This document shows positions 54,079-60,357 of a stretch of DNA of 64,000 nt, piece by piece. This DNA is from Flavobacteriales bacterium TMED123. Lineage in GTDB: Bacteria; Bacteroidota; Bacteroidia; Flavobacteriales; BACL11. The position numbers were made by a program, and so were the translations under genes. The stretch lies in assembly GCA_002170165.1 (NCBI GenBank), contig NHFY01000013.1:1-64000 (forward strand), given 5' to 3'. Every line of letters starts with the position of its first letter. Within the stretch, counting starts at the first letter, position 1. The notes beneath the pieces are model-generated. The model searched no databases. It worked only from the letters and a program-made list of their open reading frames with translations, and was not told the DNA's origin.

Positions 54079-54841
54079 AATTAATTGTTGAATCGACTAT
54101 ACTAGAAACCGTATCCATTTCCGACATAACTGATTTCACCTCATTGTCTAGTTTCATTCTTTGCAGATAAGGAGAATACAAACTCAATCTCTCAGCAAGC
54201 ATATTAGTAACCCCATCTGATGTTATTGTCCCCCCAGAAATCCCATCTACAGCATGCATATCTGCAGGATCGGCACCTCCCTTAACAACAATAATTGAAA
54301 CCAATTTATCTGCTTCAAAAATACTCTTGCCTGCAAACTGATCTTCAAAAAAAGATCTATTAATCTCCGCTCCTAATCCAGGAGTCTCTGCCTTATGATC
54401 AAAAACAGCACCATAAACGGTATTAAAATCTTCTTCTAGAGCAATAAATCCCCATATTGGACCCCATAACCCTTTACCTAGTAAGGGAATAATATATTTT
54501 TTCTCTTGATCTACCTCACTAATAAATAACGGAAGTTGTTGATTGTCTTTATCCTTTTTTAATTCTTTTTTTAAATCAACATCAAAAGCCGATCCATCTA
54601 ATATTTCTCCTGTAGAATTAATAATAAGTTCTTCCTTGATATAAATAGGATAAATTAAGTTCGCAGAATCTCTTAAAATATTAACTCCTATTGAGCTTAA
54701 TATGTTTTGTTGTTTCTCTAATTCAATATTCTTATCTTGTAATGGTTTTAACTTAATGTATGTGCTAGATAATATAGCTGCGACAACTACCACCATAATA
54801 ATAGCGAAAATAAAAGTATATGTATTTTTATTTACATCCAT
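54071..54841 (-). CDS. nqrC: Na+-translocating NADH:quinone reductase subunit C
   Basis: A 256-aa subunit with one N-terminal membrane helix (about 8-28) and a periplasmic domain that carries covalent FMN. The flavinylation site is ISGGT, with the FMN-binding Thr at 205; most family members read SGAT, so the Ala-to-Gly change is notable. GLWGPIWGFIAL and HKAETPGLGAEI match the family. An ApbE-type flavin transferase needed for modification is not in the window. It overlaps nqrB by one base. Confidence 0.95.
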   Translation of the reverse strand: MDVNKNTYTFIFAIIMVVVVAAILSSTYIKLKPLQDKNIELEKQQNILSSIGVNILRDSANLIYPIYIKEELIINSTGEILDGSAFDVDLKKELKKDKDNQQLPLFISEVDQEKKYIIPLLGKGLWGPIWGFIALEEDFNTVYGAVFDHKAETPGLGAEINRSFFEDQFAGKSIFEADKLVSIIVVKGGADPADMHAVDGISGGTITSDGVTNMLAERLSLYSPYLQRMKLDNEVKSVMSEMDTVSSIVDSTINYE

Positions 54842-55989
54842 TAATTCTTCAATCTATTTATACGTTTTTTAATATTTGCAGCTATCACATAGTGATCTAT
54901 AAGTGGTGCAAAAACATTCATTAATAGTATAGCTAACATCATTCCTTCTGGATAAGCAGGGTTAAATATTCTGATAACAATCGCAAAGAACCCAACCAAG
55001 AGACCATAGATAATCTTACCTGTGTTTGTCTGAGATGCTGTCACAGGGTCTGTTGCCATAAATACAGCTCCAAATGCAAAACCTCCAATTAATAAATGTA
55101 TATGAGCAGGTGTACTCATCAACATGTTTATACCAAAATAATTAAATAAAAGAGCGGTTAAATAACCACCTATAAAAGTAGATAATATAATACGCCCACT
55201 TCCTATTCCTGTCAATAAAAGAAATACTGCACCCAGTAAAATAGCAATAACTGACGTTTCTCCTATAGAACCTGGCACAAATCCCATAAAAGCATCATAA
55301 GAGCTCCACATTAAACTTTCCCATGAAGACTTATTTGCTGCTAAAGATCCAAGTATTGTTTCTCCTGAATATCCATCTACTAACGCTCCATGTACCCATA
55401 CCTTATCACCTGACATGTAAGAAGGATATGCAAAGAACACGAAAGCTCTAGCTGTTAACGCTGGATTTAATATATTCATACCCGTACCTCCAAAGACTTC
55501 TTTGCCTATAATTACTGCAAATATTACAGAAATTGCTAACATCCATAAAGGCAAGTCAACTGGCATAATTAAAGGTATTAGCATTCCAGTAACTAAATAA
55601 CCCTCATTAACAGAGTGTCCTCTATATACGGCAAAAGCAAATTCAACAGTTAAACCAACAGCATAAGAAACTATAAGTAATGGTAAAAATTTCCAAAAAC
55701 CAAAAATTATATTATCTGTAAATGAAGGTTGTATACCTTTAGCTAAGTGATATTGGTCTCCAATATTCCAAATTCCAAAAAGTAGACAAGGTAATAAAGC
55801 AATTATTACAAATGCCATTGTTCTTTTGAGATCAATAGAATCTCTAATATGAGACCCCTTCTTAGTAGTATGATCTGGCACAAATAGAAAAGTTTCAAAA
55901 GCATCATAAGCAGGATATAACTTTTCTAGTTTCCCTCCTTTTTCAAAGTGAGGTTTAATAGTGTTTAATATATTCTTAAATAGTTTCAT
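54841..55989 (-). CDS. nqrB: Na+-translocating NADH:quinone reductase subunit B
   Basis: A 382-aa integral membrane subunit with about ten helices, carrying covalent FMN, riboflavin and much of the Na+ path. The FMN Thr is near residue 245 in VPGSIGETSVIAILLG. Other family stretches: NEGYLVTGMLIPLIMP, GKEVFGGTGMNILNPALTARAFVFFAYP and FMATDPVTASQT. I chose the ATG at 55989, which overlaps the nqrA stop (TGATG), rather than a TTG one codon earlier. Confidence 0.96.
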   Translation of the reverse strand: MKLFKNILNTIKPHFEKGGKLEKLYPAYDAFETFLFVPDHTTKKGSHIRDSIDLKRTMAFVIIALLPCLLFGIWNIGDQYHLAKGIQPSFTDNIIFGFWKFLPLLIVSYAVGLTVEFAFAVYRGHSVNEGYLVTGMLIPLIMPVDLPLWMLAISVIFAVIIGKEVFGGTGMNILNPALTARAFVFFAYPSYMSGDKVWVHGALVDGYSGETILGSLAANKSSWESLMWSSYDAFMGFVPGSIGETSVIAILLGAVFLLLTGIGSGRIILSTFIGGYLTALLFNYFGINMLMSTPAHIHLLIGGFAFGAVFMATDPVTASQTNTGKIIYGLLVGFFAIVIRIFNPAYPEGMMLAILLMNVFAPLIDHYVIAANIKKRINRLKN

Positions 55990-57341
55990 CAACTGTTTTC
56001 TTTCCTTACTAAATCTAATCCATAATTGACAATTGATTGAACTTCTGTTTTAGATGTACAAACAAATTCGCACAAAGCAAAATCTTCAGCAGACACCTCA
56101 TATATACCCAAATTCTCCATAAGATCAATATCTTCCATCATAATAGCTTTAACTAATTGATGTGGATAAATATTCATAGGAAATACTTTCTCATATTGAC
56201 CTGTAACAACATATGCTCTTTCTTCACCATGCATATTCGCATTTAAAGAATATTTTCTAGAAGGAAAAAGCCAAGAAGAAAATGCCCTGGAGGCGGAAAA
56301 TTTCTTCAAGCCAGGAAGAATCCAGCCAAAAAACTCTGAATTCTTACCCTCTTCAATAATAGTAATCATCGTATCATAAAAACCCATAGAATCATTACTC
56401 TCAATTCTTGTTCCTGTTAAAACATCACCAGAAATAATCCTATTTTCTCCTTCTTTAACATTATTATCAAGTAAATTATTTACTCTAGAGCCTAAAACAA
56501 CTCTATAATATCTTGGTTTAATTACTTGTGGTCCAGCAACAGCAATAATTCTAGACACATCATATTTTCCTTCAACAAATAATCGAGCAATAGTAATAAC
56601 ATCCTGAGGCTCTAAGTACCAGATAACATCACCTTTATTAATAGGATCTATATGATGTATTTGCACACCAACATTTCCTGCAGGATGAGGTCCGGATATT
56701 TTATTTATTTGCACATTCTTAGCTTGACTAAACACATTAGAAGAATTGGTATTTCCATCAATATTGAGGTGTGTTTTCCCTTCCGTTAGTTTTATAATAA
56801 AGTCTAATCCTTTTTGAAATAACTCTTCCATGCCGTATAAAGCAAAGTCATTATCAATAGCTAGTGGAGCTGAGTTGAATGCAGAGATAAAAATGGCTTT
56901 TGGAGTAACTGTTGGGTTAGCTACAATATCATAAGGTTTCTGGCGTACAAAAGGCCAAACACCCGCCTTTAGCATAGCATCAATTATTTGTTCACGAGAT
57001 AAATTAGCAGCATCTGCTTTAGCAAACTGCTCGTATTGCTGCTCAGCATCTGCTTTTACTACTACTTCAAGAATTCTTCTTTTAGCTCCTCTTTCAATAG
57101 CTACCACTTCACCGCTTACTGGAGAGCAATATTTAACTTGCAGCATGTATTTATCAGAAAATAAAACAGAGCCTGCTTTTACCTTATCGCCAACCCTTAC
57201 AAGCATTTTTGGCGTCATACCATGAAAATCAGTGGGCTTAACAACATATTTTTCAGAGGGCTTTATAGTAGCATAAACTTTGTTAGCTTCCCCAACTAAA
57301 TTGATGTTTAAACCTTTTTTTAATCTGATCTCTCTCGACAT
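55989..57341 (-). CDS. nqrA: Na+-translocating NADH:quinone reductase subunit A
   Basis: A 450-aa cytoplasmic-side subunit involved in quinone binding. The start MSREIRLKKGLNINLVGEA at 57341 matches family N-termini and the usual length of about 447; a longer reading would run through the promoter. Family stretches include VRVGDKVKAGSVLFSDK, CSPVSGEVVAIERGAKR and IHHIDPINKGDVIWYLEPQDVI. It heads the six-gene nqr operon. Its -7 box abuts that of the divergent T9SS plug gene. Confidence 0.96.
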   Translation of the reverse strand: MSREIRLKKGLNINLVGEANKVYATIKPSEKYVVKPTDFHGMTPKMLVRVGDKVKAGSVLFSDKYMLQVKYCSPVSGEVVAIERGAKRRILEVVVKADAEQQYEQFAKADAANLSREQIIDAMLKAGVWPFVRQKPYDIVANPTVTPKAIFISAFNSAPLAIDNDFALYGMEELFQKGLDFIIKLTEGKTHLNIDGNTNSSNVFSQAKNVQINKISGPHPAGNVGVQIHHIDPINKGDVIWYLEPQDVITIARLFVEGKYDVSRIIAVAGPQVIKPRYYRVVLGSRVNNLLDNNVKEGENRIISGDVLTGTRIESNDSMGFYDTMITIIEEGKNSEFFGWILPGLKKFSASRAFSSWLFPSRKYSLNANMHGEERAYVVTGQYEKVFPMNIYPHQLVKAIMMEDIDLMENLGIYEVSAEDFALCEFVCTSKTEVQSIVNYGLDLVRKENS

Positions 57342-57367
57342 TAAAAATAAATTAGATTTTTCGGCTG

Positions 57368-57375
57368 CAAACTTA
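57368..57375 (-). promoter_or_regulatory. -7 box for nqrA, back to back with the plug-gene box
   Basis: On the minus strand TAAGTTTG fits TAnnTTTG and ends 26 bases before the nqrA ATG. It directly touches the plus-strand box at 57376. Confidence 0.5.
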
Positions 57376-57383
57376 TAAATTTG
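57376..57383 (+). promoter_or_regulatory. -7 box for the T9SS plug gene
   Basis: TAAATTTG fits TAnnTTTG and ends 35 bases before the ATG at 57419. A candidate GTG start at 57383 would overlap this box, which favours the ATG at 57419. Confidence 0.5.
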
Positions 57384-57418
57384 TGCCAATTATTTATAAC
57401 TTTATAATAAAAATTGTA

Positions 57419-58759
57419 ATGCTATTTTTAAACTTTTTATTTTTCATTTTTTTTAACTCAATCTTACTTACCTCCTGCTTTAGTCAAAAAAAAATTTTAG
57501 ATAATGAATTCATTCAGAATGAGACAACATTTGTGCAGCCAAAACTAGAAGAAAAAGAAGTGATAGTTTTGCAAAATAAAGTAAGTGATGTAAATATAAA
57601 AACAGTGCTTTGTCATCAATTGCATGATGCGCTTTCTCTACCTATTATCAATTTAAACTCTGATGAAAAACTATTAATTAGTTTTGATGATCTGAATGCT
57701 GATGTTAAAGATTATTATTATACCATCATTCATTGTAATTCTGATTGGACTGCAAGTGATTTGATGCAGCCTGAATACATTAATGGATTCACTGAAGAAC
57801 GAATTATTGATTATTCTTTTTCTTTTAATACCATTCAAAAATATACTCACTATCAGTTTAAGTTCCCCACTATTAATATACGACCATTATTATCAGGGAA
57901 TTATGTGTTTAAGATCTATAATAAAAAAGAAGAAGTAATTATACAAAAGCGTTTTATGGTAATTGATACTCAACTTAGCATTGAAGCAAATGTAAAAAGG
58001 GCAACCATAATTGAAGATAGGAACACAAAACACGAGATTGACTTTACAATAAAACACGCTAATCTAGTTGTAGCTAATCCCTTCTCAGATATCAAAGTGC
58101 ATCTTAAACAAAATAATAAAGATGATAATACCATTACTGATTTGTCTCCTTTATTTGTGAAAAATGATGAATTGGTTTACGAATATGATAAAGGAAATAC
58201 TTTTTGGGGAAATAATGAGTTTCGGCATTTTGACATTAAAAGTTTGCGTTATCAGTCTGAACGAATAAAAGATATTGCATTTGATAGCACCAATTATCAT
58301 GTTTACTTATTTAATGATTACAAGCGCCCATTTGACCGTTACTCCATTGAGCCAGATATTAACGGAAAATTCCTCATTAAGTCACAAGAGGGATGGAAAT
58401 CTTCAATTGAGGCCGATTATGCTTTTGTACATTTCACTCTTCCTGTTGAATACATTAGTTATGGGAATTTATATGTGCTTGGCGCATTAACTGATTGGCA
58501 ACTGAAAGAGGAGTTTAAGCTAAAATATAATACAGTTAAAAAACAATACGAAAAAGCGGTATTGTTAAAGCAAGGGTATTATAATTATCATTATGCTTTA
58601 AATGATACTGCTACTAAAAGAGTTGATGTTTCTTTTATTGAGGGCACACATTATCAAACAAAAAACGATTACTATATTTATGTTTATTATCGAGCTGTTG
58701 GTGATAGATACGATCGCTTAGTTGGTTTTTTAAAAACCTCTTCTAAGGAGTTGTTTTAA
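57419..58759 (+). CDS. Type IX secretion system plug protein (DUF5103)
   Basis: A 446-aa exported protein. Its N-terminus is hydrophobic with a Cys in LLTSCFSQ, compatible with a lipoprotein. The beta-rich body with LLISFDDLNADVKDYYYTIIHCNSDWTASDLMQPEYINGFTEE near 80-125 and NVKRATIIEDRNTKHEIDFTIKHA matches the DUF5103 family now named T9SS plug protein, which occludes the SprA translocon pore in flavobacteria when no substrate is present. This fits the T9SS cargo proteins encoded at 18-25 kb. ATG at 57419 is chosen for the promoter position. It stands alone, divergent from nqr. Confidence 0.85.
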   Translation: MLFLNFLFFIFFNSILLTSCFSQKKILDNEFIQNETTFVQPKLEEKEVIVLQNKVSDVNIKTVLCHQLHDALSLPIINLNSDEKLLISFDDLNADVKDYYYTIIHCNSDWTASDLMQPEYINGFTEERIIDYSFSFNTIQKYTHYQFKFPTINIRPLLSGNYVFKIYNKKEEVIIQKRFMVIDTQLSIEANVKRATIIEDRNTKHEIDFTIKHANLVVANPFSDIKVHLKQNNKDDNTITDLSPLFVKNDELVYEYDKGNTFWGNNEFRHFDIKSLRYQSERIKDIAFDSTNYHVYLFNDYKRPFDRYSIEPDINGKFLIKSQEGWKSSIEADYAFVHFTLPVEYISYGNLYVLGALTDWQLKEEFKLKYNTVKKQYEKAVLLKQGYYNYHYALNDTATKRVDVSFIEGTHYQTKNDYYIYVYYRAVGDRYDRLVGFLKTSSKELF

Positions 58760-60319: not shown

Positions 60320-60327
60320 CAAATCTA
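60320..60327 (-). promoter_or_regulatory. -7 box for the symporter
   Basis: On the minus strand TAGATTTG fits TAnnTTTG and ends 17 bases before the symporter ATG at 60302. It decides against the longer frame starting at 60404. Confidence 0.5.
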
Positions 60328-60349
60328 TCAGAATATTTAAGAATAGACC

Positions 60350-60357
60350 TATATTTG
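60350..60357 (+). promoter_or_regulatory. -7 box directly before recR
   Basis: TATATTTG fits TAnnTTTG and ends only 5 bases before the recR ATG at 60363, suggesting a leaderless or nearly leaderless message. Confidence 0.45.

Follow-up and report, generated by a model that had tools for sequence, protein, structure and literature searches.

Gene context of the intergenic region

The window, i.e. the whole 64-kb stretch of DNA that was analysed, contains a divergent intergenic region of 77 bp (57342–57418), bounded by the ATG of nqrA (57341, minus strand) and the ATG of a T9SS plug protein gene (57419, plus strand). The minus-strand gene (55989–57341), encoding subunit A of the Na+-translocating NADH:quinone reductase, was identified by its Pfam domains (PF05896, PF24836 and PF11973) and is followed in the same direction by nqrB (54841–55992; PF03116, extent taken from the open reading frame). 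The plus-strand gene (57419–58759) carries PF17116 (T9SS_plug_1st) with an E value of 1.5e-43. Both gene starts were placed by homologues, the alignments of which begin at the two ATGs; the starts given in the open reading frame list, TTG 57389 and GTG 57383, were rejected as over-extended.

Within this region, positions 57368–57383 read CAAACTTATAAATTTG on the forward strand. Here, CAAACTTA directly adjoins TAAATTTG with 0 bases in between, giving two matches to TAnnTTTG: TAAATTTG at 57376–57383 on the plus strand, the putative −7 box of the plug promoter, and TAAGTTTG at 57368–57375 on the minus strand, the putative −7 box of the nqrA promoter. Both assignments rest on the motif match and on relatives, in which a box lies at most 70 nt upstream of nqrA and the plug-side box abuts it. 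The 16-bp site is nearly palindromic, with 14 of its 16 positions self-complementary, and has the symmetrical core by which bidirectional promoters are recognised. Single TAnnTTTG sites were not enriched in the 64-kb window (106 observed, 105.4 expected); abutting back-to-back pairs occurred once against 0.03 expected, with at least one pair in 3 of 100 shuffles. The sequence-only reading of this DNA had pointed out a near palindrome offering TAnnTTTG in both directions within 16 bases, and this is borne out by the sequence and by the rarity of such pairs after shuffling.

Conservation across relatives

A search with the plug protein covered the window's own genome and 59 relatives, 60 in all, and gave a match in 50. 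Family f1, the window's own genome included, comprised 37 genomes, 32 of them with a plug match and 31 with readable upstream DNA; an nqrA box was counted when it lay within 70 nt upstream of nqrA. The divergent nqrA/plug pair and the nqrA box were present in all 31. The two boxes abut exactly in 26/31 and lie within 3 bp of each other in 27/31, and genome G013 (L030) keeps both with a 1-bp gap between them. Four f1 genomes (G015 and G025, genus g13; G022 and G029, genus g9) have no exact plug-side box, and no replacement TAnnTTTG for plug was found in the span checked, so that plug can evidently do without that box. Both genomes of the neighbouring family f9 carry the nqrA box and the abutting pair (2/2 each).

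In the rest of the order, nqrA was divergent in 8 of 16 fetched stretches, with an nqrA box in 7/8 and abutting boxes in 0/8. Among 80 named loci from GTDB genomes, nqrA was present in the DNA of 41; the boxes abut in 8 of these (seven titled Flavobacteriales, one Crocinitomicaceae), which overlap with the f1/f9 genome rows in that some are the same assemblies, and the remaining 33 have the nqrA box in 25 and abutting boxes in none. Pooled, the loci outside f1 and f9 have the same divergent genes and a similarly placed nqrA box in 32/41, but abutting boxes in 0/41, for which reason the abutting form looks derived. The simplest reading of these sequences is that the nqrA box is old and that the plug box came to lie directly against it on the branch towards f1 and f9. 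At six loci titled Bacteroidales (L085, L088, L089, L094, L103 and L106) there is a separate plus-strand box at a distance of about 50 bp.

The sequence-only reading had proposed a single polymerase entry point shared by both genes, and had named the loss of one box in relatives that keep the gene pair as evidence to the contrary. Position, composition and conservation across the family lend good support to the shared entry point. On the contrary evidence named in advance the picture is mixed: the abutting arrangement is retained in most of f1 and in both f9 genomes, the exact plug-side box is lost in 4/31 f1 genomes, and abutting boxes were found at 0/41 loci outside these lineages.

Promoter-like features of the two boxes

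TAnnTTTG is described in PMC9723704 as the −7 box of the main sigma factor in Bacteroidota, located at −12 to −5 from the transcription start in F. psychrophilum. With this placement, starts are predicted near 57363 on the minus strand for nqrA and near 57388 on the plus strand for plug, 25 bp apart. The gaps from box to ATG are 26 nt (nqrA side) and 35 nt (plug side), and both fall into the 0–39 nt peak that holds 75 of the 115 boxes located within 150 nt upstream of genes in 300 kb of one relative plus the window. In the same lineage, the base after TTTG is C in 56% of 63 gene-proximal boxes. At nqrA–plug, this C follows the nqrA-side box in 31 of 35 distinct rows (31 from f1, 2 from f9 and 3 named loci, minus one duplicate); the plug-side box is exact in 30 rows, and 25 of these have the C. 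The specified bases of the plug-side box average 1.64 bits of column information vs 0.60 in the plug leader, and its free bases are AA in 24/30 rows, which is more constant than a bare −7 box requires; those of the nqrA-side box occur in 7 different combinations among the 35 distinct rows, as expected of a TAnnTTTG box. A TTG about 20 nt upstream was found for neither box at the window locus, the plug side having TTAG, and the −33 element was weak generally among the 63 boxes. In F. johnsoniae, the −33 TTG element was likewise not found according to the available part of PMC7366714. As far as the accessible text of PMC9723704 and PMC7366714 describes sigma-A promoters of Bacteroidota, both boxes match their −7 consensus and their usual distance to the start codon. 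In a sample of 34 divergent gene pairs (gap 20–400 bp), facing-away boxes were present in 12, and they abut only at nqrA–plug.

Taken on sequence evidence, the 16 bases are probably a bidirectional promoter shared by nqrA and plug. According to the strongest alternative, which we regard as unlikely, promoter function belongs to the nqrA box alone: the TTTG on the plug side would be an upstream A/T-rich contact or would follow from the symmetry, and plug would be transcribed from a start that has gone unrecognised. Such a reading would account for the nqrA box standing without an abutting plug box outside f1 and f9, and for the 4/31 f1 genomes that lack the exact plug-side box and show no evident replacement; however, an A/T-rich contact has no need of the conserved plug-side G and the following C, and the plug ATG lies at a distance typical of promoters. 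Also against it, a further plus-strand TAnnTTTG was found in only 1/31 family rows (L026) in the stretch from the shared box to where plug homology begins, and the same layout recurs at some other divergent pairs.

Abutting boxes at other loci

The 16-mer pattern occurs 1–4 times per f1 genome. The 25 f1 genomes searched contain 46 sites, 19 of which are nqrA–plug (assigned by coordinates) and 27 lie elsewhere, vs 21 and 22 sites for the reversed and the ATAT-centred control patterns; in 15 other genomes of the order, 18 sites were counted vs 13 and 23 for the controls. As the off-locus number is hardly above the controls, the signal lies in placement: 13 of the 27 off-locus TATA-centred sites in the f1 genomes stand between divergent genes, vs 1 of the 22 ATAT-centred controls. 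Fisher tests gave 0.0007 with nqrA–plug excluded and 2e-7 with it included, values that overstate independence because many of the 13 appear to be orthologous copies of a single divergent pair (resB-like/DUF2520). By inspection, the divergent sites rest on about six gene pairs, nqrA–plug counted. Some sites labelled as coding lie within about 35 nt of an open reading frame start and may reflect over-called starts (TATA-centred L042, L053, L054, L183 and L184; control L198 and L207); the counts retain the automatic labels for these seven.

In the window's own genome, abutting boxes lie in the resB-like/DUF2520 gap at L037 1501–1516 (G000:C13:31666–31681), the genes being confirmed by Pfam there and in G015; the layout was seen in several relatives, judged by flanking sequence. 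In G014, abutting boxes at L042 1501–1516 lie between gldB (gliding lipoprotein) and nadE (NAD synthase gene), both named by Pfam, and L184 and L190 resemble this site (gene identity putative). Other off-locus gene pairs were assigned by open reading frame lengths and flanking sequence. In the window itself, facing-away −7 boxes 22 bp apart were noted at 60320–60357, between a putative sodium:solute symporter gene (minus strand) and a recR-like gene (plus strand), both named by eye from their translations.

Over 8 genomes, facing-away boxes 0–24 bp apart numbered 392 vs 152 for the reversed-pattern control. The form in which the two boxes share a TA gave 90 vs 55. Exactly abutting pairs in those 8 genomes came to 22, including 7 at nqrA–plug, vs a mean of about 16 for each spacing, so that no excess is left once nqrA–plug is set aside; abutting as a generally preferred geometry was not established. 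The divergent placement supports two promoters over an operator, and a general preference for the geometry is not thereby established.

That the near palindrome is instead the operator of a dimeric regulator, with coincidental box matches, we hold to be very improbable. The palindrome is perfect over 16 bp in 7 of the 35 distinct rows, and over 20 bp in 3, as an operator might have it, but the other 28/35 rows are imperfect, the free bases of the two boxes are unequally variable, G013 tolerates an extra base between the boxes, and each strand of the site reads as the known −7 consensus. In 10/25 f1 genomes, moreover, the 16-mer occurs only at nqrA–plug, which leaves no regulon in those. A palindromic operator was set aside as the main reading on the imperfect palindromes, the inserted base and the sole site in these genomes; from the sequences, variable free bases and the C after TTTG fit two sigma-A −7 boxes better.

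Chance juxtaposition, or a conserved N-terminal extension of nqrA through the site, can hardly be credited, as the boxes abut in 26/31 f1 genomes despite drifting flanks, and the nqrA frame, which is open upstream to TTG 57389 in the window and for 16 codons in 12/36 rows, meets a stop in the other 24/36, with box-to-ATG distances of 21–32 nt lacking three-base periodicity, by which stops and spacing a coding extension is ruled out.

Conserved leader block and inverted repeat

Read on the minus strand, the block TTAGATTTTTCG (57352–57363) belongs to the nqrA leader; read on the plus strand, it falls in the −33/spacer region of the plug promoter. As it spans the predicted nqrA start and leader as well as the plug −33/spacer, one sequence may serve both promoters. 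The nqrA leader (57342–57363) has a mean column information of 1.26 bits vs 0.60 in the plug leader for the stretches used. Its conservation seems to go beyond the needs of a start site alone. In 11 genomes, which were picked for carrying TTAGATTTTTCG at nqrA–plug so that its presence there is by choice, only 2 copies were found away from this locus; a recurrent regulator site is unlikely on this count.

A Fur-like inverted repeat, TTTAGAATnATTCTAA and variants, was observed at a near-constant distance from the nqrA ATG, 78–90 nt upstream and towards plug from the shared promoter, in 13/31 f1 loci (L015–L017, L020–L023, L025, L026, L029, L031, L146 and L153) and in both f9 loci (L027 and L028); its likeness to a Fur box is our assumption. 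With an ad hoc pattern, no repeat of this type was found at the window's own nqrA–plug locus. The exact TTTAGAATnATTCTAA occurs once per genome, at nqrA–plug, in G010, G015 and G026, and not in G000, G012 or G057; looser forms occur at the nqrA–plug locus and a few times elsewhere. A text search of the available part of PMC9331221 found no mention of a Fur box.

Proposed operation as a shared promoter

In the proposed bidirectional promoter, two complete sigma-A −7 boxes, one per strand, would abut at the TATA centre, and RNA polymerase with the housekeeping sigma factor would bind in either of two orientations. Firing on the minus strand would start near 57363 and transcribe nqrA together with its downstream genes, giving a leader of about 22 nt; firing on the plus strand would start near 57388 and transcribe plug, the leader here being about 31 nt. 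Given the size of RNA polymerase relative to the 25 bp between the predicted starts, two polymerases should not fit together. Occupancy would thus be exclusive at any instant, and output need not fall unless one side fires very often. What the data establish is the sequence, its position, the identity of the two genes and the conservation; firing from both boxes, the start positions and the exclusivity are what we infer from the site.

The sequence-only reading had gone further, in that firing in one direction should block the other. Mutual blocking of nqrA and plug is sterically plausible from the predicted spacing. At five E. coli bidirectional promoters described in PMC12825309, basal firing rates did not suffice for competition; repression arose only on strong activation of one side. 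Any regulatory effect therefore depends on the firing rates, and blocking becomes a conditional expectation.

A more far-reaching proposal, for which we see little likelihood, is that f1 fused two ancestrally separate promoters so that the sodium-pump chain and the T9SS plug compete for one polymerase slot, which would control the ratio of respiration to pore sealing without a dedicated factor, with the layout recurring at a few other divergent pairs. Relatives having the same nqrA/plug pair with fused or with unfused promoters offer a natural experiment on whether such competition matters.

Comparison with known bidirectional promoters

Bidirectional promoters are a known kind, for which PMC10268837 gives a working definition of divergent starts 7–25 bp apart; the distance predicted here from the box positions is 25 bp. 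According to the accessible parts of PMC12825309 and PMC10268837, the E. coli and Salmonella examples of Warman, Grainger and colleagues are pseudo-symmetrical and often lie between divergent genes, as here, and polymerase binds them in either orientation in a mutually exclusive manner, as is proposed for nqrA–plug. In these, the two directions share one −10 element, with starts most often 18 bp apart and 10 and 23 bp also common (PMC12825309), whereas the nqrA–plug site consists of two complete abutting −7 boxes of the Bacteroidota type. Reciprocal overlap of −10 elements, by which the enterobacterial promoters are recognised, is not found, as the boxes abut without overlapping; the site would therefore work like a bidirectional promoter, and would count as one only under the broader definition by start spacing.

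In the Flavobacteriales, the short divergent region of 122 bp between rhuH and rhuR–rhuA of Riemerella anatipestifer is described as a shared bidirectional promoter region (PMC11967795). It serves other genes and is Fur-controlled through a Fur box, and abutting −7 boxes are not described in the available part of that paper. Among the matches listed in the literature searched, there was no shared nqrA/plug promoter and no abutting −7 boxes in Bacteroidota. In enterobacteria, bidirectional promoters have been elucidated for the case of one shared −10 element; the nqrA–plug site would add a family-wide version in which two Bacteroidota boxes abut.
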